This document shows, piece after piece, positions 40 to 34,533 of a stretch of DNA of 40,866 bases. The stretch spans positions 1 through 40,866 of IMG/VR virus record IMGVR_UViG_3300008448_000214; one strand, given 5' to 3'. Below the pieces are notes generated by a model, which was not told the DNA's origin, did not search any database, and saw only the letters and a program-made list of their open reading frames with translations. The stretch's first letter is position 1. Each line of letters starts with the position of its first letter. Made by a program: the position numbers and the translations under genes. This stretch comes from a virus.

Positions 40-114
40 TGGCGACCCGTAGGGGAATCGAACCCCTATCCCCTGATAGACAGTCAAGGATAATAACCAC
101 TATAAGAACGGGCC
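40..114 (-). tRNA. tRNA-Asp(GTC)
   Basis: A full cloverleaf can be folded. The acceptor GGCCCGT pairs with ACGGGTC (one G-U), followed by discriminator G and an encoded CCA. The anticodon stem CTTGA/TCAGG closes the loop CTGTCTA, giving anticodon GTC. The T arm is AGGGG-TTCGATT-CCCCT. Position 37 would be U rather than the usual purine. It is one of a tandem cluster transcribed leftwards. Confidence 0.88.
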
Positions 115-121
115 AAAAACT

Positions 122-195
122 TGGTGCCTTGTGAAGGAATCGAACCTCCGTCTGATCCTTGTAAGGGACCGGCCCTACCATTAGACGAACAAGGC
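122..195 (-). tRNA. tRNA-Val(TAC)
   Basis: The acceptor strands GCCTTGT and ACAAGGC pair perfectly and are followed by A and an encoded CCA. The anticodon stem GGTCC/GGATC closes the loop CTTACAA, giving anticodon TAC (Val). The T loop is TTCGATT. It lies between an unusual hairpin spacer (206-240) and tRNA-Asp. Confidence 0.9.
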
Positions 196-205
196 GAAAT
201 AGTAA

Positions 206-240
206 CCTTCCTGGTGCGCTTCTATGAGAGGCGTGGAAGG
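206..240 (-). ncRNA. structured spacer hairpin between tRNA genes
   Basis: The 57-nt spacer between tRNA-Gln and tRNA-Val holds a near-perfect inverted repeat. The outer stem is CCTTCC/GGAAGG, the inner stem CGCTTC/GAGGCG (one G-U), and the apical loop is 5 nt. There is an asymmetric internal loop of 5 nt against 1 nt. It has no U-tract, so it is not a standard terminator. It could be a tRNA-processing signal, a decayed tRNA, or a small stable RNA like those in the T4 tRNA cluster. Function unknown. Confidence 0.45.
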
Positions 241-252
241 TTTGTTAAATTT

Positions 253-326
253 TGGCAGGGGATACAAGAATCGAACTTGTACTACTTGAGTCAAAGTCAA
301 GTGTGCTACCACTACACAAATCCCCA
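253..326 (-). tRNA. tRNA-Gln(TTG)
   Basis: The acceptor TGGGGAT pairs with ATCCCCT except for an open 1-72 position. Discriminator G and an encoded CCA follow. A weak first pair and G73 are typical of tRNA-Gln. The anticodon stem CTTGA/TCAAG closes the loop CTTTGAC, giving anticodon TTG. The T arm is ACAAG-TTCGATT-CTTGT. Confidence 0.9.
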
Positions 327-333
327 ACAAAAC

Positions 334-407
334 TGGCTACCCTGCACGGGCTCGAACCGCGACCAAGAGTTTTGGAGACTCGTATGCTGCCATTACACTA
401 CAGGGTA
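334..407 (-). tRNA. tRNA-Trp(CCA)
   Basis: The acceptor TACCCTG/CAGGGTA pairs perfectly and is followed by G73 and an encoded CCA. The loop CTCCAAA gives anticodon CCA (Trp). The anticodon stem has four good pairs and an outer C-T mismatch. G73 fits tryptophan identity. T4 itself carries no tRNA-Trp, so this cluster is not a simple copy of the T4 set. Confidence 0.85.
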
Positions 408-478
408 ACTACCATATAGGAACACACTCCCCGGCTGAACCTAGGACACCGTTTGTGCATTAGGAATGTGTTTTTATA

Positions 479-554
479 TGGTACACCGTACGGGAATCGA
501 ACCCGTCTTTCCGCCTTGAAAGGGCAGCGTCCTTAACCGATAGACGAACGGTGC
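479..554 (-). tRNA. tRNA-Glu(TTC)
   Basis: The acceptor GCACCGT pairs with ACGGTGT (one G-U). Discriminator A and an encoded CCA follow. The anticodon stem CTGCC/GGCGG closes the loop CTTTCAA, giving anticodon TTC. The T arm is ACGGG-TTCGATT-CCCGT. It is the first tRNA after the promoter at 604-632. The 71 nt between it and tRNA-Trp (408-478) show no further cloverleaf. Confidence 0.9.
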
Positions 555-874: not shown

Positions 875-1324
875 TCAGATTTTCAATGGATGACAAGAAA
901 TATTTTTTGATGCATCAAGGAATCTTAAGTATAAGCCAATATCGTTTGCGTAAGCCTCTTTCTCCCAAGGTTGCTTTCGATACTCAGTGTCCTCGTTTAT
1001 TTCCTTACCTTTCCAGTATGTAAGACACTGGGACAATTCACCTTTTGCAAATTGCTTGACATGGATCATTTCGTGAGCAAGGGTGGCAATTGGATCTTCA
1101 CCGTATGGACTTATTGTCAAAACAAAATTACGAGGTACTCCTTGCTTGTTATGCTGTGTAGCATGACACATACCATAACAATCTTTCATTCTCTTCATTT
1201 TGATAGTAAGTGTAATGTTACGAGTGAGGTTTCTGTGCATCAGTTTGCTAGCATAGTATGTTACAGCTTCGTCTATCAGAACTTTCAATCTTTTGTTTCT
1301 ACAGTTCTTGATACGTATATTCAT
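875..1324 (-). CDS. SprT-like zinc metalloprotease
   Basis: This 149-aa protein carries the gluzincin-type motif HEMIH at residues 84-88 (LAHEMIHVKQ). A downstream WEKEAYAND segment (about 120-128) could supply the third zinc ligand. The basic N-terminus and size resemble the short SprT/Wss1-like metallopeptidases common in phages. Its substrate is unknown. I chose ATG 1324 over an in-frame codon at 1369 because AGGAGGAGC sits directly before it. The gene follows gp41 and a small membrane-protein gene, so it is probably expressed with replication genes. A role in removing proteins from DNA is possible by family analogy but is not shown here. Confidence 0.75.
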   Translation of the reverse strand: MNIRIKNCRNKRLKVLIDEAVTYYASKLMHRNLTRNITLTIKMKRMKDCYGMCHATQHNKQGVPRNFVLTISPYGEDPIATLAHEMIHVKQFAKGELSQCLTYWKGKEINEDTEYRKQPWEKEAYANDIGLYLRFLDASKNISCHPLKI

Positions 1325-1331
1325 GCTCCTC

Positions 1332-1508
1332 CTATTCGCCTGGTGTTTCTTCCTTCTCTTCTGGTACACTATTCAACAAATCGAGCAGCTGTTCAGGAAT
1401 AAACAATATATCTACTACCCATGCCAAAAGGTGTGTGCTTGTAGACATGACAACAGCTATAGGTACCAATACACACAAACCAAAAAAGTTGAACAATAAT
1501 TTTGTCAA
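1332..1508 (-). CDS. small membrane protein, 58 aa, TTG start
   Basis: A frame opens with TTG at 1508, overlapping the gp41 stop (TTGA). It is preceded by GAGGA at a 6-nt spacing and closes with TAG at 1332. Residues 4-20 (LLFNFFGLCVLVPIAVV) form one hydrophobic segment. A second semi-hydrophobic stretch and an acidic tail (PEEKEETPGE) follow. The stop lies just before the ribosome-binding site of the metalloprotease. An internal ATG at 1448 has no ribosome-binding site, so TTG is preferred. The function is unknown. It could be a one- or two-pass inner-membrane protein made by coupling to gp41. Confidence 0.55.
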   Translation of the reverse strand: MTKLLFNFFGLCVLVPIAVVMSTSTHLLAWVVDILFIPEQLLDLLNSVPEEKEETPGE

Positions 1509-9433: not shown

Positions 9434-9823
9434 TTATCGCTTGCCTATATTATATTTAACCACCAACTCCCACTCATCTTTTTCTTTATGTGTTATCACC
9501 TTAATTTGGCTCAGCGGTGCCTTTGGTTCTCTGCTTTTTTCAGGAACAATTAGCTTGATCAATCCCCACTCAGCAAGTAAGTTAGCAATCGTATTTCTTC
9601 TGCCAATATCTTCTTCAGAGAAGTTGGTTGGTTTACCATCAAGAGCAAAAAGCTCTTTGAAATGAACGATGTAGTACCTACCCTGCTTGTGTAGAATGTG
9701 ACAGCTTTGGAATAGTTTTTTGTCTTTCTTGGAAGCCACACCAATTCTGGTTAGCGTTTCTCTTACTTTCAAGAAAGCTTCTTCCTCAGCTAATGTAACC
9801 TCTACTAGACTTTCGATGTTCAT
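9434..9823 (-). CDS. regA: RegA translational repressor
   Basis: 129 aa, close to T4 RegA (122 aa), and in the same place after gp62. RegA binds initiation regions of early mRNAs, including gp45 and gp44 in T4, and blocks translation. The segments EEAFLKVRETLTRIG, CHILHKQGRYYIVHFKELFALDG and IGRRNTIANLLAEWGL match the family. The last is the helix-loop region implicated in RNA binding. The start follows the gp62 stop directly (a TGA then ATAATG junction). Candidate targets at gp45 and gp44 are listed separately. Confidence 0.93.
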   Translation of the reverse strand: MNIESLVEVTLAEEEAFLKVRETLTRIGVASKKDKKLFQSCHILHKQGRYYIVHFKELFALDGKPTNFSEEDIGRRNTIANLLAEWGLIKLIVPEKSREPKAPLSQIKVITHKEKDEWELVVKYNIGKR

Positions 9824-10200
9824 TATTCACCCTTTTTTAATTTTTCTTTTATAAGGCTTATTTGATCACTAGAAAGTAATGACAGAGCTTCAAAAGTCTT
9901 TTCATTGCTATATTTGAAATACTCTTGGACAGCTTCAAAATCACTATTTTCCACTTTTTTCACCCACTTAGCATACCGTCTCGAGGGTCTAATACTATTT
10001 AGAAGATATTGATATTGTAGCTTGTTGTCCAATCCATGTCTGCGATTCATCTCGTTTGCATACATGATTGTATCTGAAAAATACGACAAAGACTTGTTGA
10101 TGAGGAAGGGTTGATATAGTTTCTCTGCTAAATCATCCTCCTTACCAATAAGGTTTTTCTTTCCATAAGTGATATCATTTACAAAGTCAAATGGGCTCAT
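9823..10200 (-). CDS. 62: gp62 clamp-loader small subunit
   Basis: 125 aa (T4 gp62: 187 aa). It partners gp44 in a 4:1 complex that loads gp45 on DNA. The N-terminus MSPFDFVNDITYGKKNLI is characteristic, as are YANEMNRRHGLD and IRPSRRYAKWVKK. The shorter length is usual in environmental T4-like phages. Its ATG overlaps the stop of the 48-aa microprotein (ATGA). In T4, gp44 and gp62 are directly coupled, so the insertion of a coding unit here is unusual. Confidence 0.9.
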   Translation of the reverse strand: MSPFDFVNDITYGKKNLIGKEDDLAEKLYQPFLINKSLSYFSDTIMYANEMNRRHGLDNKLQYQYLLNSIRPSRRYAKWVKKVENSDFEAVQEYFKYSNEKTFEALSLLSSDQISLIKEKLKKGE

Positions 10201-10343
10201 TTTGTCACCGCCATGTACAAACCAATGTTAGAACACGCGTAACTAGCGTATACAACGACCATAGCGGCGTTCCCCAATCGGTATTGATCAATGGCGACAG
10301 CACCGTAGATTAGCGCTGTAATAATGATTAGCCAGCCACTCAT
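10197..10343 (-). CDS. 48-aa hydrophobic microprotein between gp44 and gp62
   Basis: The frame runs from ATG 10343 to TGA 10197 and fills the gp44-gp62 gap exactly. Its ATG overlaps the gp44 stop (ATGA), and its stop overlaps the gp62 ATG (ATGA). The product starts MSGWLIIITALIYGAVAID, then YRLG, then a second hydrophobic stretch (residues 26-46) ending VTK. It should be a two-pass membrane hairpin. The perfect double coupling means ribosomes leaving gp44 must traverse it to reach gp62, which strongly supports a real gene. The function is unknown. Membrane tethering of the replisome is speculation. Confidence 0.75.
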   Translation of the reverse strand: MSGWLIIITALIYGAVAIDQYRLGNAAMVVVYASYACSNIGLYMAVTK

Positions 10344-11275
10344 TTGAATTCCACATCCACCATGATCTCAGTGAAACAAGCTGCCATATTGATTTCGCTA
10401 TCTGCAACGAAAGCAGCTTTGTACTGATAATCAGCAAGGAATAACACTAGCTGAGGAATGCTGTTTGGTACAACAAACTCTGATGCATAGTCATAAAACT
10501 TACGGAACATTGTTGTCTGGTCAATGTCTGAATTCTCACCAATCCACCTACGAACCTCGGTGAAGTTCTTTGCTCTCATTGCCTGAACCAATTGCTTGAA
10601 CGACTCATCAGAGAAAGAAACAAGGATACCAGAATCAATCTTGCCTGTTGCAGCATAGCGCTGAAGTTCATTCAGCATTCGTCTCCAATCAGGAAAGAAC
10701 TTCTTGATTAGCTCACCAACAACCTTAGTTTCGAACTTAACATTCTCTGTCTCAAGAATATTGACAACACGTTTGTAGAAAAGTGTAGCAAGCTTTGGAC
10801 GTTCCTCTAGCGGAATCTTAAAGTCAATAACACTACAACGACTATGCAATTCTTTAATGATTCGGTTTGGATAGTTACAAGTAAAGATGAAACCACAGTT
10901 ACCTGAGAACTCTTCAATAAAGTTTCGAAGAGCAGGCTGTGTTGAATTAGGATTTAGATAATCAGCCTCATCCAAGATCACATACTTTCTTCCTGTATGA
11001 AAAGATACAGATGAAGCAAAAGTTTGAATCTCGTTACGCAAAGTGTCAATGTTACCATTCAACGAACCGTTGATAACAATGTAATCACTATCTAGTTCAC
11101 GCAACATTGCTTTTGCAACAGTAGTCTTACCTACACCAGCCTTACCTGTCAGCAAAAGATTAGGAACAGTGCCATCATCTACAAACTTCTGGAAAGTAGC
11201 TTTCAAAGACGGTGACAAAATACAATCAGATATCGTTTGTGGACGATACTTTTCAACCCACAGAAAATCACTCAT
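10340..11275 (-). CDS. 44: gp44 clamp-loader ATPase subunit
   Basis: A 311-aa AAA+ ATPase of the clamp-loader family (T4: 319 aa). Motifs: Walker A GKAGVGKT (44-51), Walker B YVILDEADYL and the SRC arginine-finger motif (LHSRCSVIDF). It opens and places the gp45 ring in an ATP-dependent way. The start is preceded by GAGGGAG and an AT-rich element almost identical to that of gp45. The stop overlaps the ATG of the 48-aa microprotein. Confidence 0.95.
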   Translation of the reverse strand: MSDFLWVEKYRPQTISDCILSPSLKATFQKFVDDGTVPNLLLTGKAGVGKTTVAKAMLRELDSDYIVINGSLNGNIDTLRNEIQTFASSVSFHTGRKYVILDEADYLNPNSTQPALRNFIEEFSGNCGFIFTCNYPNRIIKELHSRCSVIDFKIPLEERPKLATLFYKRVVNILETENVKFETKVVGELIKKFFPDWRRMLNELQRYAATGKIDSGILVSFSDESFKQLVQAMRAKNFTEVRRWIGENSDIDQTTMFRKFYDYASEFVVPNSIPQLVLFLADYQYKAAFVADSEINMAACFTEIMVDVEFK

Positions 11276-11293: not shown

Positions 11294-11947
11294 TTACTTC
11301 TTTTTTGGCGGATCGCCAGCAATCCAATATTCTACATCAGTTCCCTTAAAGTACGCAACATGATTAGCGTTAATGGTCACATTAAAGTCTTCAGGAAGCA
11401 CTTTGATTCGCTCACCTTTGAATACACTACTGAATGCATGCTCACTTGTTCCTACCTCAACCTCGTACTTATTGCTAGTTGGGTTCGATACATCGGTTGC
11501 ACACATCTTTACATTCTCTGTGTCACCTTCAACAACAATAGAAGGCAACTGTAGAACATGCAATGCTTTCAATACAGATGAAAGTGTTTGTTGTGGTAGA
11601 TCAAACTGTGCTACCACATTACCAGGAGGAAGCTTCTTATCACCAGGAGTAACAATTAGACTTGGGTCTGCATAAAAATAGTCTACATACTCCTTACCTT
11701 GCTTGATACGCATAAACTTCTCTTTGAACTCGATGTCAGGATCTTTGAACAGAGATAGCATTCCAAGAAACTTTTGGATTTCGTAAATTGCTATCTGCCG
11801 TTCAAATGTCTCTGTAATCGTAGCCTTTGCCATCACTTCCTTGAGGGTCGAGAGTGATGCAAGAGTGTTACCTGGTTTAATCACGATCGATTGGTTGATC
11901 AGCGAGAAGTTCTTCAACAGCTGAATCGTTCTACTCGATAATTTCAT
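11294..11947 (-). CDS. 45: gp45 sliding clamp
   Basis: 217 aa (T4: 228 aa). A trimeric DNA-encircling processivity factor that also activates late transcription with gp55. The N-terminal segment KLSSRTIQLLKNFSLINQSIVIKPGN is family-typical, as are QFDLPQQTLSSVLKALHVLQLPSIVVEGD and the C-terminal strand AYFKGTDVEYWIAGD. It heads the gp45-44-62-regA block, in the T4 order. Its initiation region carries the candidate RegA element. Confidence 0.95.
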   Translation of the reverse strand: MKLSSRTIQLLKNFSLINQSIVIKPGNTLASLSTLKEVMAKATITETFERQIAIYEIQKFLGMLSLFKDPDIEFKEKFMRIKQGKEYVDYFYADPSLIVTPGDKKLPPGNVVAQFDLPQQTLSSVLKALHVLQLPSIVVEGDTENVKMCATDVSNPTSNKYEVEVGTSEHAFSSVFKGERIKVLPEDFNVTINANHVAYFKGTDVEYWIAGDPPKKK

Positions 11948-16103: not shown

Positions 16104-16296
16104 CAGACAGTTTAGTTTTCTTTAATGCACTTGTTGCCATTTTCACTACACGTGGATGATCTTTCATCTTCAACACGTAGAATGGCTTTCCTTCAATATC
16201 TTCTTGACCCATAAAATAGGCTTCAAAGTATTCACCAGAAATGTTGTTAATAAAACCTGTCAAAATAGGTGCAGGTTTCACTTCACGTCTTTTCAC
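16081..16296 (-). CDS. hypothetical basic protein, 71 aa, GTG start
   Basis: The start is GTG 16296, overlapping the folE stop (GTGA), with AAGGGATG upstream. The sequence begins MKRREVKPAPILTGFINNISGEYFEAYFMG and ends in a Lys-rich helix (ALKKTKLSVDSFKKM). The central strands suggest a small beta fold. No family is recognised. Coupling to folE places it in the deazaguanine/pterin gene group, but this does not prove a role there. Confidence 0.55.
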   Translation of the reverse strand: MKRREVKPAPILTGFINNISGEYFEAYFMGQEDIEGKPFYVLKMKDHPRVVKMATSALKKTKLSVDSFKKM

Positions 16297-16985
16297 AATA
16301 CATCCCTTTGCATCTTCACATTGTTATAGAACTCTGCCTTAACAGAATCATTGTGGAACAATCCATGTACCACACAGGTCTGTGTTAGACTAGAGTGAGC
16401 TTCAACACCACGGTTTTCCATACAACCATGGGTCGCTTGAATATACACAGCTACGTTTTCAGTATCTGTGCTCTTCATAATTTCACGAGCAATCTGATTG
16501 ACTAGTTCTTCTTGAAGCTGGCCACGACGAGCACACCATTGTGCAATTCGTGCATACTTTGAAAGGCCAATCACTTCACCAGTAGGAATAATACCAATGT
16601 ACGCAACACCGCGTACAGGTTGGTGATGATGAGAACACATTGATGTAATTTCAGCTCTGATTACGAGCATGCCTTCAAATCGGCCAGGTCCTTCATTAGG
16701 AAATGCTGTTACCTTTGGTCGTTTATCAAAACGTCCAGCCATTAGCTCCCAAACATACATCTTAGCAAGACGCTTTGCTGTATCTTTAGAATTAGAATCG
16801 TTCTCAGTATCAATGACCAAAGAATCCAATACTCCTTGGAACTTTGTTTCAAGCTCTTTCACTAATTCTTCACGATCGTTCTCTGAAACAAATTCAGAGA
16901 TATTATCACATGCAAAATAACGAACCTTGTTTTGATCAAGGCGGTCTCTAATTACTTCTGAAATTGGTTTACCTAATTGATTCAT
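16293..16985 (-). CDS. folE: GTP cyclohydrolase I
   Basis: 230 aa. It converts GTP to 7,8-dihydroneopterin triphosphate, the first step to 7-deazaguanines and folate. The zinc and catalytic residues lie in TSMCSHHHQPV (C117, H119, H120) and THGCMENRG (H186, C188). The substrate segment is VIGLSKYARIAQW (about 139-150). The canonical E-H-H is S-H-H here; the metal-binding Cys and the following His are kept. AAGGATAATAA precedes the ATG. With queD-like, queE and dpdA nearby it probably serves DNA modification rather than folate. Confidence 0.92.
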   Translation of the reverse strand: MNQLGKPISEVIRDRLDQNKVRYFACDNISEFVSENDREELVKELETKFQGVLDSLVIDTENDSNSKDTAKRLAKMYVWELMAGRFDKRPKVTAFPNEGPGRFEGMLVIRAEITSMCSHHHQPVRGVAYIGIIPTGEVIGLSKYARIAQWCARRGQLQEELVNQIAREIMKSTDTENVAVYIQATHGCMENRGVEAHSSLTQTCVVHGLFHNDSVKAEFYNNVKMQRDVL

Positions 16986-18122: not shown

Positions 18123-18291
18123 GTCTATCCTCTTTCTTCTTCAAAGTCCAACCCATACCATCTCCATTGCTTGACCATACAAGCACATCTCCTATCTGCC
18201 AGCCAATTTGTTTCAACTCGTCTTCAGTGAATTCAATTAAGTATTCTTCTGTTTGTTCATCCTGTACAATTAACTTTGTGTAAGTTGTCAT
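18115..18291 (-). CDS. AbrB/SpoVT-like swapped-hairpin small protein
   Basis: 58 aa from ATG 18291, overlapping the queE stop. A GTG at 18300 is a less likely start. The segment EFTEDELKQIGWQIGDVLVWSS fits the strand-helix-strand pattern of AbrB/MazE-type domains (E-L-x-x-L-G-W-x-x-G-D). The product could bind DNA as a dimer. Tight overlaps with queE and queD on both sides indicate co-translation. The domain call is from pattern only. Confidence 0.5.
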   Translation of the reverse strand: MTTYTKLIVQDEQTEEYLIEFTEDELKQIGWQIGDVLVWSSNGDGMGWTLKKKEDRHG

Positions 18292-19178
18292 GTTCCCCAC
18301 GCATTCTTAAACAAAGGCACTTGCAACCTGTCACTGTACCGTAATCCATATCTCATGGCCATTTCAGCAACGTCTTTGTTATTCATAGAATACACTTGCT
18401 CTACACCACCTACAGGCATTAAGTAAACCGGACCTGTAAATCCAGCATTCCTATAATCTTCTATAGCTGTCCAAATTTCATTAGCTTCGGTTTCTTTTGT
18501 CACAACAAACTTCAAGTAAGTAAAGCCAATGTCTTGGTATTGCTTAATGATATGTGGCTTTATAGCATCTTCATATTTCTCACCGCTAGAGCTCAGCTTT
18601 GGACTGACACTGAATGTTAAGCTATCGTAGCTTCGAGCCTTCAAAACTCCTTCACGAGGATAAACATCTTTCTTCCAATACTGCAAGAAGGAAATCATAT
18701 CATCGTGGAGTTCTTGAGTACCATTAGTTTCAAAGGTGAGTTCTTGAAGAGCTCTCATATCTTCGTGATCTAGCAACTCTGGATACGACCTTTGCCAACC
18801 AAGCAATGGCTCACCACCAGTAATAACTAGATGCTCACTACCCCAAGCAGCTGCTGGCCACTTAGCAGGCAATAACTCAATAATTTTTTGTACGAGTTCT
18901 TTGACCTCAATCAAAGGTGACAAATGTTTAAACCTCACGTCCCATGATGCGTAACTATCGCAACCAGTGGACACTAGCGGTAGTTCTTTGTACGAGTTGT
19001 ATTCTGTGGCTTTCAAAGCAATAACATCTCGTTCCGTGCTATGTTCACCTTTTGGCATACCAAATCCACCACAGGTAAAGTTACAACCAAAAGTACGAAG
19101 AAACACTGAAGGTACACCCATGTACCTTCCTTCTCCTTGGATGGAATAGAATAGTTCAGATACTTTGATTTTGGACAT
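18288..19178 (-). CDS. queE: QueE 7-carboxy-7-deazaguanine synthase (radical SAM)
   Basis: 296 aa from ATG 19178 (AAAGG upstream), overlapping the deformylase gene by 23 nt. It converts 6-carboxytetrahydropterin to 7-carboxy-7-deazaguanine. FYSIQGEG (10-17) is the family N-terminal signature, and ITGGEPLLGW is the SAM-binding GGEP motif. The cluster motif is split: C32-x3-C36 is followed not by x2-C but by 36 residues and then C73 in TGCDSY, where CDS corresponds to the usual C-D-T. This indicates an expanded cluster loop with the three Cys retained. Confidence 0.85.
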   Translation of the reverse strand: MSKIKVSELFYSIQGEGRYMGVPSVFLRTFGCNFTCGGFGMPKGEHSTERDVIALKATEYNSYKELPLVSTGCDSYASWDVRFKHLSPLIEVKELVQKIIELLPAKWPAAAWGSEHLVITGGEPLLGWQRSYPELLDHEDMRALQELTFETNGTQELHDDMISFLQYWKKDVYPREGVLKARSYDSLTFSVSPKLSSSGEKYEDAIKPHIIKQYQDIGFTYLKFVVTKETEANEIWTAIEDYRNAGFTGPVYLMPVGGVEQVYSMNNKDVAEMAMRYGLRYSDRLQVPLFKNAWGT

Positions 19179-19686
19179 ATAAACCTTTCTTAATAGCTCT
19201 ATCAATTTGTTTCTTTTTATTCATACCTCGATCCAAATGATATGTTGAAACCCTGTCAGTATACACTATTCCATTCAAATGATCAAGCTCATGTTGGAAA
19301 CATCTTGCTGTCATCCCATCAAACTTCTGTGTTTGTGTTTCTCCATTAGGTAGCACAAATCTTACTTTGATTGTTCTTGGTCTTTTGATCTTCAAAAATA
19401 GATTAGGAAATGACAAACATCCTTCATCCATAAGAACAATGTTCAACTCTGTTTCATCAACGATTCTAGGATTGAAACAAACATAAACGGGATTTGCACT
19501 AAGAGCAAAAACTCTATAAGGTAACCCAATCTGATTGGCTGAAAGTCCTAATCCTTTGTTGTGTATCATTGTTTCAGTCAAGTCTCTCGCTAACTGAACA
19601 GGATCTGTTGGAGGGTTTGTAAAATCAAAAGGCTCCATCTTCTGTCTGAGAATAGGATGGTCACTTCTCACTAATTCGTGTATCAT
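19156..19686 (-). CDS. def: peptide deformylase
   Basis: 176 aa. It removes the formyl group from nascent N-terminal Met. All three motifs are present: GLGLSANQ (45-52), EGCLSFP (88-94, metal ligand C90) and HELDH (132-136). Phage deformylases are often shorter at the C-terminus, but this one is close to bacterial length. The ATG overlaps the gp46 stop (ATGA), and its end overlaps queE. Deformylases occur in cyanophages and other marine T4-like phages, where they may support host or virus protein maturation. Confidence 0.95.
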   Translation of the reverse strand: MIHELVRSDHPILRQKMEPFDFTNPPTDPVQLARDLTETMIHNKGLGLSANQIGLPYRVFALSANPVYVCFNPRIVDETELNIVLMDEGCLSFPNLFLKIKRPRTIKVRFVLPNGETQTQKFDGMTARCFQHELDHLNGIVYTDRVSTYHLDRGMNKKKQIDRAIKKGLYVQNQSI

Positions 19687-21398
19687 TGTTGTATCCTTGA
19701 AAAATTCTTATGCTTCTCAAATCGTATTACATTGGCAAACTTGTCAAACAACTGATCACCTTTGTGGCTAATAATGAATGTATTTGTTTCTTGAGTAAGG
19801 TTGTTCAGTATCTTCATAAACTCTTCTGTACCAGATCCGTCTAACGAGGAATCAAATACTTCATCCATAATAAGGATGTTAGTAGAAGTAGAATTACGAA
19901 GTTTAGCCACAGCTCGCCACGTGAATAGCAAAGCCAGGTCAATACGCATTTTTTCACCTTCTGAAAAACTCTCATAACTAAATTCATCTCTAAACCTCGA
20001 TTTTATTGTCTCTTCAAAATTCTCATTCAACTCAAAGTTTACAAAAAAGTCCATTGCTGCCAAATACTTGTTTATCAACTTATTCATTACAGGAATGTAT
20101 TGTTTGATAATTCTGGTCTTAATACCACTATCTTTCAACATCAAAGCAGCCAAATCTAAAGTTTGCTTTTGGTTTTGTAAATCTTCAAGATGTTGTTGAG
20201 AACTAACTAAATCAGTCTCTAGCTTCTCAACTTCCCCAACGTTGGTATCAATCTGCTTTGTGTTACCTTGAAGGTCTTTGATCTCATCTTTAAGATTAGT
20301 GATAGTACTTTTATGTATTCTTAGTGTGCTTGTTTCTTCGGATATTTGGAGCTTAAGTTTTGTTATTTGAGATTCTATCTTTTTCGTTTCTTCAATGGCA
20401 TCTTCAATTGCTTTGATCTGCTCACTAAGATCCTTCATTCCTTGTTCTACTTGTTGTTTATGACTATCCTTTTCGGCTACTGTAGTCGTTTTAAAGTCTT
20501 CGTCAATGTGTTGTTTGCAAGTAGGACAATTATCATGGTTACTAAAGAACTCAATCTCTTTCTTTAGTTTAGACAACCGGTCTTCTAGTTTACTCTCTAA
20601 GGTTGTAAGTTTGTTCAACTTCTTATCATTAGAAGTACTATCGGTTATACTTTCTTCAAGTTTTTCCACTTTGAGTTGAAATTCTCCAACTTTTTTGTCC
20701 CCTTCTTGTACCTTTACTTCAACCTCTTTGATCTTTGATTGCTTTGCACTGATAAGCTCATCAATGTTTTGCTGAATGCTATCAATGTGCTGTTTATGAA
20801 TATCAATCTTCTCTTTGATACCTTTTATACCATAAGAGACATCCACAATGTCGGTTTTATTCTGAGAAATCTTTTCTTTCAATAGAACATTCATCTTAGA
20901 AAAGATTTGAATGTCCAAAAGATCTTCAATGATCTCTCTTCTATTGGCTGCTGTAAGTTGCATGAATGGAACAAACGATGTTGCTCCAAGCACAACAATC
21001 TGTCCAAACGATTTGTGATTGAGCTTTAGTATTTGTCTTTCAAACATCTCTTGATATTCTTTTTGATCAGCAGTTTGATCCAATAGCTGATCATTACAAT
21101 AGATCTCAAAAGTGTTTGGTTTGATGCCTCTTATTACTTTGTATTTCTTTTTGCTTACATCAAACTCGACTTGAACCTCTAACCCCTTTTTGTTTATAGA
21201 GTTTAGAAGTTGGTTTTTGTTGATGTTTCTAAATGGCTTTCCATACAAAGCAAAACAAAGAGCATCAAGGATTGTAGACTTCCCTGCTCCATTTTCACCA
21301 ACAATCAATGTAGATTTACTGGTATCAAGACTGATCTCAGTAAAAGTGTTTCCTGTTGATAGTATATTTTTCCATCTTATCTTTTTAAATACAATCAT
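19683..21398 (-). CDS. 46: gp46 recombination nuclease ATPase subunit (Rad50/SbcC-like)
   Basis: 571 aa (T4: 560). Walker A GENGAGKS (34-41), long coiled-coil arms, and a zinc hook CPTC (291-294) at the apex. The ABC signature FSEGEKMRI is at about 478-486 and Walker B ILIMDE at 508-513. With gp47 it resects DNA ends for recombination-dependent replication. Its ATG overlaps the stop of the 158-aa gene, which sits between the two nuclease subunits. Confidence 0.95.
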   Translation of the reverse strand: MIVFKKIRWKNILSTGNTFTEISLDTSKSTLIVGENGAGKSTILDALCFALYGKPFRNINKNQLLNSINKKGLEVQVEFDVSKKKYKVIRGIKPNTFEIYCNDQLLDQTADQKEYQEMFERQILKLNHKSFGQIVVLGATSFVPFMQLTAANRREIIEDLLDIQIFSKMNVLLKEKISQNKTDIVDVSYGIKGIKEKIDIHKQHIDSIQQNIDELISAKQSKIKEVEVKVQEGDKKVGEFQLKVEKLEESITDSTSNDKKLNKLTTLESKLEDRLSKLKKEIEFFSNHDNCPTCKQHIDEDFKTTTVAEKDSHKQQVEQGMKDLSEQIKAIEDAIEETKKIESQITKLKLQISEETSTLRIHKSTITNLKDEIKDLQGNTKQIDTNVGEVEKLETDLVSSQQHLEDLQNQKQTLDLAALMLKDSGIKTRIIKQYIPVMNKLINKYLAAMDFFVNFELNENFEETIKSRFRDEFSYESFSEGEKMRIDLALLFTWRAVAKLRNSTSTNILIMDEVFDSSLDGSGTEEFMKILNNLTQETNTFIISHKGDQLFDKFANVIRFEKHKNFSRIQQ

Positions 21399-21871
21399 GC
21401 ATTAAACCATTCCGGAATTGGCCTATTAGTCCATTTAGCAAAATGAGCTTTGGCTCCTTTGTAATAATTTTTGTACGATTCGATATGATCACTTACTTTG
21501 AATTCTTCAGGCATAGCCAAAGGAGGAGGTGTAAATGATCCTGTTTCAATATTATAGGGAAGTTTTTTTAGAACGTCAATTAGTCTTTCACATGCATGAG
21601 TTTTCATGTACCTGTATTTGTACTCTCTCATTAACTCTCTCCACAGAACATATAACCAGTTGTAGTTACTGTCAGTTGTTCTAGCCCAAATGGCTGATGG
21701 ATGGTTTTTATGAGTAGACTTGTAAATTCCTTCACGTGCATTATTGCCATCAATTACATGATGGGCAGTAGAAAGAAGTTGAGCGGACTCAACGATCATT
21801 TTCACTACGTGCTTATCACAATGTAGTTCTGCACATTTTTCAGGATTATTGTCGAGATAAAAAATGTTCAT
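21395..21871 (-). CDS. conserved phage protein between gp47 and gp46, 158 aa
   Basis: I recall this family (MNIFYLD..., CDKHVVKMIVESAQLLSTAHH..., HKNHPSAIWARTT-NY-WL..., MPEEFKV...) as widespread in phages, usually without a function. It is rich in conserved His, Cys and Trp (H18, H21; HKNHPS; FAKWTNRPIPEWF), suggesting a metal or nucleotide site. The start follows the gp47 stop by a few bases, and the end overlaps gp46 (ATGA). A link to DNA-end processing would be inference from position. Confidence 0.7.
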   Translation of the reverse strand: MNIFYLDNNPEKCAELHCDKHVVKMIVESAQLLSTAHHVIDGNNAREGIYKSTHKNHPSAIWARTTDSNYNWLYVLWRELMREYKYRYMKTHACERLIDVLKKLPYNIETGSFTPPPLAMPEEFKVSDHIESYKNYYKGAKAHFAKWTNRPIPEWFNA

Positions 21872-21873
21872 AA

Positions 21874-22932
21874 TTATTCCAAAGTTAAAGCCTCACTATA
21901 CAATGACCTTAATAAATTTTCAAGCTTTTGTTTGTCTGCATTAACATTTACCTGCGTAATGTATTTGTTCAATATGGTCAACGTGTCTTCAGCTTCATTC
22001 ACTATATCTTTGTCTTCTTCAAGGTTGAGATTGTAGTGATCATCAACTACTTGTATGTCTATTACTCCAGCTTTCTCGAGCTTCTCAATGAACATATCAA
22101 ACCAATATGGATTAGTTTTGTTTCTGACTACTACTTTGACTATTGTTTTATTGTATATTGAAAAGTCATCTAACAACACATCCTCAATGGTTTTGTTCAA
22201 ATCGTCATAATGAACTTTGATAAACATTGATAGAGGATTAGGAATAAACTCTACTTCTCTTGTATTAGTGTCAAATATATGGAACCCTTTTTGGTCACTG
22301 TAATCTGACCAAGTTATTTCGTATGGAGTTCCAACATAGGTAATGTTACGTTTTGTTGACCTGTGATGGTAGTGTCCAGAGAACACAAACTCAAACTTAG
22401 AGAAGATGTTTGCATCAAGTCCTTCATCAATAATAGCACCTTTATACATTTCAAAGCCGCTAATTTCAAAGTGGCCACAACATATTTGAGCTTTAGATAT
22501 TTTGATTGCTTCAAACACTTCTTTCTCATTCTCTGGACATATCCAAGGAATCATCAAGAATGAAACACCACCAAAAGAAGTTTCGTATGGGTGGTGAATT
22601 GTGTTTATGTTTGAGTATTGACCAAGAATAAGATCTAATGAGTTGACACTATTTGTATTTTTGTAATACGTGTCGTGATTACCAATTAATAACCAGCTTT
22701 TGTATTTTTGGTTTAGTGGCTCAAAGAAATACTCTTTAGAATTCTTTAATGTTTGAAAGTTGATATACTTTCTACGATCAAACACATCACCAAGTTGAAC
22801 AACATAATCAACTTCGTGTTTATCAAGATATGGAAAAAATATGTCGTCGTAAAAATCTTTGAAGAATTGGTGAAAGACCGGATTGTCTCCTCTCGCACCA
22901 AAATGTGTATCACCTAATAACGCTACTCTCAT
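21874..22932 (-). CDS. 47: gp47 recombination nuclease subunit (Mre11/SbcD-like)
   Basis: 352 aa (T4: 339). Calcineurin-like phosphoesterase motifs: GDTH (D8, H10), GDVFDR (D49), GNHD (N85, H86), then GHFEISG and GHYHHR. These bind two Mn ions. It is the nuclease partner of gp46. GAGGAG precedes the ATG, which lies just after the gp55 stop. The C-terminal helical part should dock to gp46. Confidence 0.95.
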   Translation of the reverse strand: MRVALLGDTHFGARGDNPVFHQFFKDFYDDIFFPYLDKHEVDYVVQLGDVFDRRKYINFQTLKNSKEYFFEPLNQKYKSWLLIGNHDTYYKNTNSVNSLDLILGQYSNINTIHHPYETSFGGVSFLMIPWICPENEKEVFEAIKISKAQICCGHFEISGFEMYKGAIIDEGLDANIFSKFEFVFSGHYHHRSTKRNITYVGTPYEITWSDYSDQKGFHIFDTNTREVEFIPNPLSMFIKVHYDDLNKTIEDVLLDDFSIYNKTIVKVVVRNKTNPYWFDMFIEKLEKAGVIDIQVVDDHYNLNLEEDKDIVNEAEDTLTILNKYITQVNVNADKQKLENLLRSLYSEALTLE

Positions 22933-33756: not shown

Positions 33757-34533
33757 ATGATAAAATCATACACATATTTAGTAGGGTGGACAAAATTAAA
33801 CTTATGGTATTATGGTGTAAGATATAAACAAGGCTGTAGTACTAACGATTTTTTTACTGTGTATTTTACTTCTTCAAAACTCATACACGCTTTAATGCTT
33901 ACCCACGGTCTTCCTGATGTACGAGAGATAAGGCGTACTTTTGACAACGTGAAAAAAGCTCTTGTATGGGAACAAACCGTGTTGCGTAGGTTGAAGGTTT
34001 TGAGAGATGAAAAATGGTTGAACCAAAATGTTTCTGGTGCTATAAATTTTACTCCGGCTATGCGTCAAATAATGTCCGAAAGAAAAAAAGGTAGAGTGTG
34101 GCTTACTAAAGATAATAAAAAAACTCTAGTAAGAAAAGAGTTAGTAGAAGTATTAATTGCCGAAGGATACCAAAAATGGCATCCGGATAATTCAGGTAAA
34201 AAAAATGGTATGTGGGGAAAAAAGCACACAAATGTATCAAAGAACAAAATTAAAGAAACCAAGGTAGGTAAATGCTATACTTCCGATGAAGGGTTGCATC
34301 AAAAGTCAATTTTTATGAAGAATAATAATCCAATGCATGATCCTACTATCAAACAACACCATAAAGAAAAAATGATCCAATTGAAAAATGCCAGCAAAAA
34401 AGTATACTATAAAGGATTTGTATACAATTCAGTCCGAGAAGCTGCTCAACATCACCCCCATATGAAATATTCTACACTAGCTTGGTCATGTGCAAATAAA
34501 AAAGCTGGATGGTCTTACGACGATCCAGCTTAA
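33757..34533 (+). CDS. GIY-YIG free-standing homing endonuclease
   Basis: 258 aa, the only plus-strand gene. The N-terminal YLVGWTKLNLWYYGVRY (7-23) is a divergent GIY-YIG core with YYG at 18-20 and R22. E72 in VWEQ and an Asn-rich WLNQN (87-91) could complete the site. Two NUMOD3-like boxes follow (NSGKKNGMWGKKHT, about 145-158; NNNPMHDPTIKQ, about 189-200). A C-terminal NUMOD1-like helix region is VYNSVREAAQHHP. It lies antisense between gp18 and gp19, so it interrupts a normally contiguous late cluster without breaking either gene. It is likely mobile. Confidence 0.85.
   Translation: MIKSYTYLVGWTKLNLWYYGVRYKQGCSTNDFFTVYFTSSKLIHALMLTHGLPDVREIRRTFDNVKKALVWEQTVLRRLKVLRDEKWLNQNVSGAINFTPAMRQIMSERKKGRVWLTKDNKKTLVRKELVEVLIAEGYQKWHPDNSGKKNGMWGKKHTNVSKNKIKETKVGKCYTSDEGLHQKSIFMKNNNPMHDPTIKQHHKEKMIQLKNASKKVYYKGFVYNSVREAAQHHPHMKYSTLAWSCANKKAGWSYDDPA

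Follow-up and report, generated by a model that had tools for sequence, protein, structure and literature searches.

The gap between the clamp-loader genes gp44 and gp62 in the investigated virus record (40,866 bases, in the following termed the window; a T4-like phage fragment as judged from its gene content) is occupied by a 48-codon gene whose product is, with a probability of roughly two in three, a mobile accessory hairpin microprotein of the inner membrane (about 48 residues), horizontally acquired into a cargo slot and equipped with a built-in stop-start junction. To judge from its homologues and their conservation, the frame is a real gene and belongs to a so far undescribed family of mobile phage genes (see Table 1 for coordinates).

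Table 1. Microprotein gene of the window, its junctions and the adjoining replication genes
Feature	Position	Strand	Remarks
48-aa membrane microprotein gene	10197..10343	-	predicted two-helix hairpin, roaming phage family; homologues, dN/dS
ATGA stop-start overlap, gp44 stop / microprotein start	10340..10343	-	
ATGA stop-start overlap, microprotein stop (TGA) / gp62 start	10197..10200	-	
gp44, clamp loader large subunit, upstream neighbour	10340..11275	-	phrog_168 E 1.4e-114; Pfam Gp44_lid, AAA
gp62, clamp loader small subunit, downstream neighbour	9823..10200	-	phrog_225 E 8.5e-39; Pfam Phage_clamp_A
RegA translational repressor	9434..9823	-	PHROG/Pfam matches
gp45 sliding clamp	11294..11947	-	phrog_223 E 1.8e-67

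The initial annotation had described a frame of this length that fills the gap with an ATGA at both ends, which was confirmed from the ORF coordinates and the sequence; the translated product is MSGWLIIITALIYGAVAIDQYRLGNAAMVVVYASYACSNIGLYMAVTK. The Shine-Dalgarno sequence of gp62 is located inside the microgene (−6.1 kcal/mol, spacing 5), that of the microprotein is weaker (−4.9 kcal/mol, spacing 12), and translational coupling in vivo would lead from gp44 via the microgene to gp62. Such a two-sided overlap is uncommon in the microprotein family (6 of 100 loci). The gp44 sequences closest to that of the window are found on IMG/VR contigs (72%) and, among annotated phages, in Methylophilales phages Melnitz and Stenotrophomonas phage DLP6 (59-60%); in both, a hypothetical gene is also located at the stop of gp44.

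Elsewhere in the window, a minus-strand phrog_624 ORF (21395-21871) that looks like a pyrimidine-dimer glycosylase is positioned between a gp47-like (21874-22932) and a gp46-like gene (19683-21398) and overlaps the start of the latter by 4 nt, thus representing a second insertion within a core gene pair; a homing endonuclease gene (phrog_314; 33757-34533, plus strand) is present between tail-tube-like and sheath-like genes of the minus strand. Five tRNA genes (Asp, Val, Gln, Trp, Glu) are located at 40-554 (minus strand), and two further minus-strand ORFs (16293-16985 and 18288-19205) resemble, by eye only, GTP cyclohydrolase (FolE) and QueE, which are found in 7-deazaguanine pathways.

According to the AlphaFold model (mean pLDDT 92.4), the microprotein forms a helical hairpin with helices at residues 3-23 and 26-47 and a turn at G24-N25, in line with the two hydrophobic segments noticed initially; on the basis of this hydrophobicity, the predicted hairpin is probably located in the inner membrane. 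The charge is close to zero at the N terminus and in the loop and approximately +0.8 at the C-terminal end, a pattern that weakly favours a cytoplasmic position of both hairpin ends. The window protein fits the family motif MSGWLIII..IY..VA.EQ...GN..M...Y.GYAFSN.GLY and shares 40-68% identity with other members (alignments A3/A4); M1, L5, I6, Y13, Y35, N39 and G41 are invariant in an alignment of 32 sequences. The comparison of synonymous and nonsynonymous changes proposed by the initial annotation yielded a median dN/dS of 0.09 (220 pairs), a value that describes the sampled family and not the window copy, which has no close relative and is saturated at synonymous positions in comparison with its nearest kin. 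This value and the number of relatives given below bear out the view that the predicted membrane microprotein is encoded by a conserved gene. No Pfam, PHROG or NCBIfam model matched the window protein, and Foldseek searches of BFVD and PDB returned nothing significant for the hairpin; phrog_11319 was rejected as a family model, as it also matched E. coli and other controls and gave a single record at 4.8e-4.

Homologues of the window protein were detected by tblastn in five annotated phages (E 4e-8 to 6e-4), and a sixth, DSL-LC04, was found at E 0.3 by tblastn and at 5.8e-12 with the profile; the annotated carriers thus comprise Methylophilaceae phage P19250A, four Manatee Spring phages and DSL-LC04. 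The supposition that genes of this size fall below gene-finder limits and may be unannotated was weakened, since the six GenBank records found contain hypothetical-protein annotations for their relatives (141-159 bp; one of them called from a later start). The profile search of IMG/VR yielded at least 533 relatives and that of cellular genome contigs 13, mostly from MAGs; a plasmid copy (L274; NZ_CP126028.1, Bradyrhizobium elkanii pUSDA31-2), accompanied by phage-like genes, is located directly 3' of a SprT-like gene and annotated from a later start. The sequences read comprise 86 distinct variants. The genes adjoining the microprotein vary between loci: they code for a metallophosphoesterase (phrog_221) preceded by a SprT-like gene, a replication-initiation-like protein (phrog_270), a hydrolase weakly matched as proteasome-like, an apparently UvdE-like endonuclease (phrog_8420) and numerous orphans. 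In 31 of 106 loci (including L176, L197, L217, L251, L173 and L186), genes for SprT-like protein and metallophosphoesterase are found at most four genes away from the microprotein, in two opposite arrangements; a functional tie to them was not adopted, as these loci probably represent few lineages, and is kept as a lead. The window itself contains a SprT-like zinc-peptidase ORF (phrog_10499, HEMIH motif; 875-1369, minus strand) at a distance of 9 kb from the microprotein.

In T4, gp44 and gp62 are directly coupled and produced in a 4:1 ratio, and the initial annotation had linked the insert to the clamp loader and the replisome. This tie was not supported: a true gp44 is present in no more than 5 of 50 virus records that carry the microprotein, and in four of these five the gene resides outside the gp44-gp62 gap (approximately 2 kb downstream of gp44 in the contig of L215, approximately 9 kb away in two others and approximately 103 kb away in that of L258). 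Copies within the gap are restricted to the window and to locus L249, which was found through the microprotein search. The expectation that related phages would share the frame at this position consequently held for L249 and failed for the other gp44/gp62 loci retrieved, none of which carries the microprotein in the gap; since many of these contigs are fragments, the absence is weak. The microprotein was likewise detected in none of 50 sampled gp44/gp62 records by a model that does match in carriers, and neither a pattern scan at gp62 starts nor a search with the gp62 of L249 revealed a gap carrier besides L249. As nearly all relatives reside in small phages without gp44, the sequence comparisons do not support the microprotein family as a part of the clamp loader.

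In the 85-row tree, which was built on 48 columns and is weak with few forks resolved, no fewer than three label changes on branches with support are needed to account for the T4-like carriers, and the window is placed within non-T4 rows (98/91). According to this topology, T4-like phages would have gained the microprotein gene at least two or three times, and the simplest reading of the window and L249 lineages is that of independent acquisitions into the same gap.

The gp44-gp62 gap is a tolerated cargo slot in aquatic T4-like phages. It holds at least one gene in 122 of 258 loci (57 families), whereas the gp62-regA junction (9820-9826 in the window) is broken by an inserted gene in 1 of 223 loci (Fisher 2e-39); the contig genes were called by a simple ORF caller, and the loci share ancestry. 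The inserts range from about 0.1 to more than 1.5 kb and are unrelated in content, comprising PurS-like, Dam, glutaredoxin-like and nuclease-like proteins as well as hypotheticals (names assigned partly by eye). Loci without insert show the direct gp44-gp62 ATGA in 44 of 70 cases; in loci with insert, ATGA is kept at the gp44 stop in 57 of 106 and at the gp62 start in 41 of 106, and coupling thus appears to be often preserved on insertion.

The retained overlaps, together with the ATGA on both sides of the microgene, could also be explained if the insert were kept as a translated spacer that sets the gp62 level and brings it down against that of gp44, in the direction of the 4:1 complex. This would agree with a review according to which the amounts of the clamp-loader proteins are set by translational coupling that usually reduces the downstream product (PMC2988022). 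We nevertheless regard such a spacer as unlikely: direct ATGA coupling already exists in the majority of the phages without insert, size and content of the gap inserts follow no common pattern, and gp62 possesses its own Shine-Dalgarno sequence within the insert. The protein is also conserved where gp62 is missing, which argues for selection on the microprotein itself. An effect of the microgene on gp62 dosage is possible in the window phage.

A function in lysis, as a small holin, antiholin or pinholin, would fit the two-helix hairpin and the holin-like size, and in one lineage the gene comes after a row of holin-like and M15 endolysin-like genes (assigned by sequence) and then SprT-like and phosphoesterase genes. 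Yet P19250A and ctjtQ328 each possess a separate annotated holin, and in the window and many other loci the microprotein gene is situated among early replication genes. Furthermore, scans of 13 family members against Pfam, PHROG and NCBIfam gave no significant holin match, and the sole named holin in the fold search appeared at E 0.75. We therefore consider a lysis protein quite improbable.

As suggested initially, the insert might place a membrane protein in the replisome operon; such a product could be imagined as a tether linking the membrane with early DNA or with the clamp loader. Small transmembrane proteins of several families recur in this gap: they were found in 64 of the 122 loci with an occupied gp44-gp62 gap, mostly as members of one 56/95-aa family, versus 2 of the 108 loci with an occupied gp45-gp44 gap. 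At the family level the excess is modest (5 of 19 recurrent small families in the gap versus 4 of 65 elsewhere, Fisher 0.025; the 68-aa transmembrane family 34 was left out, being the 95-aa gene read in another frame). The 56/95-aa protein, the commonest gap occupant (alignment A2; e.g. L126:2717-3004, L153:2720-3004), is highly conserved (...PPLLxLYPxWIxGCAMYAWAAYTRKSFGMLANYxLLxTIDxIGLxRM) and resembles the microprotein in being a small membrane protein of this gap that frequently has an ATGA at its junction with gp44; it differs in its four predicted helices, three of which are of membrane-spanning length. It gave no Pfam match above cut-off and no significant PHROG match, the Foldseek search of the 95-aa protein against PDB yielded nothing significant (SemiSWEET only at E about 3), and no BLASTP match was obtained between the 95-aa protein and the 78-aa protein preceding the microprotein copy of L258. 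A homology of microprotein and 95-aa protein, suggested by eye (Y..WA...G...Y....(N/D).GL), was rejected at an hhalign probability of 0.1%. A replisome tether is hence very doubtful: kinship with the common occupant is not indicated, the window family is absent from the other gp44-gp62 loci that searches with gp44 or gp62 had yielded, most of its occurrences are in phages lacking gp44, and the hairpin has no extramembrane domain past a few residues. Finally, an intergenic frame that is open merely by chance, to which the shortness and the lack of Pfam, PHROG or NCBIfam matches might point, is refuted by hundreds of homologues, the low dN/dS and the invariant residues.

The preferred reading of a mobile accessory gene with a built-in junction is further illustrated by its start. 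Codon 2 is a serine codon of the AGY type in 82 of 83 distinct microprotein genes (window: ATGAGT), resulting in ATGA or TTGA, whereas the conserved Ser38 of the same genes is encoded by AGY in 42 and TCN in 33 (AGY 42/75), and other genes beginning with ATG-Ser use AGY in 34 of 51 cases. Members with a TTG start have TTGAGY, so that the TGA is retained; together with the AGY bias at codon 2, this suggests that the stop-start tetranucleotide was kept by selection or history. A 4-nt overlap with the upstream gene was observed in 52 loci involving 26 distinct upstream families, and 16 families lack it; the upstream genes derive from a simple ORF caller, and 10 of the 26 families are shorter than 80 aa and may be spurious. 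Compared with the background in annotated carriers (25 of 126 other same-strand junctions, ~20%, hand count), the excess has a binomial p of 4e-9, or 0.005 with only the 16 upstream families of at least 80 aa, relatedness being ignored in both cases. Tentatively, and with more doubt than conviction, ATGAGY/TTGAGY might be regarded as a portable stop-start adaptor that eases entry into operons, with the gp44-gp62 gap as a preferred site for small membrane effectors.

Among known genes, P19250A_0048 of Methylophilaceae phage P19250A (APC43933.1) and hypothetical CDS such as UOF80855.1 are homologous to the microprotein (47 aa, 51-52% identity). P19250A_0048 displays the same hairpin motif and overlaps its upstream gene by TTGA; in contrast to the window, however, its 38.7-kb genome is that of a small phage without clamp-loader context. 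The T4 gene 44/62 operon has the same order as the window (gp45-gp44-gp62-regA) and, to our knowledge, no gene between 44 and 62, whereas in the window the microgene relays the gp44-gp62 junction. A further parallel is T4 mobE, a free-standing homing endonuclease gene that overlaps nrdA (UAAUGA) (PMC2988022): both are mobile genes within a core operon with a stop-start overlap, and the coupling that often persists on insertion into the gp44-gp62 gap matches the description of mobE. The microprotein is no endonuclease, though, but a 48-aa membrane protein with no known self-mobility function.

Under the mobile-accessory reading, the microprotein gene would reach a T4-like phage by horizontal transfer and settle in the gp44-gp62 gap, where its ATGAGY start would also provide the TGA stop of the upstream gene. 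Ribosomes finishing gp44 would restart on the microgene and, in the window phage, those finishing the microgene would restart on gp62, which could in addition use its own Shine-Dalgarno sequence. The hairpin would then enter the inner membrane and presumably exert an accessory (moron-like) role on a host or phage component there, not on the clamp loader, possibly via the conserved polar and aromatic residues Y13, Y32, Y35 and N39 within the hairpin.

The analysis thus defines a widespread family of putative phage membrane microproteins that is missing from the family libraries and has a testable expression device. A junction that is directly coupled in T4 often takes cargo in aquatic T4-like phages, while the gp62-regA junction almost never does, and this contrast makes a rule for phage cargo sites directly testable. 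If the adaptor reading were true, the start of the gene would both stop the upstream gene and capture its ribosomes, and expression would survive insertion even in core replisome operons.
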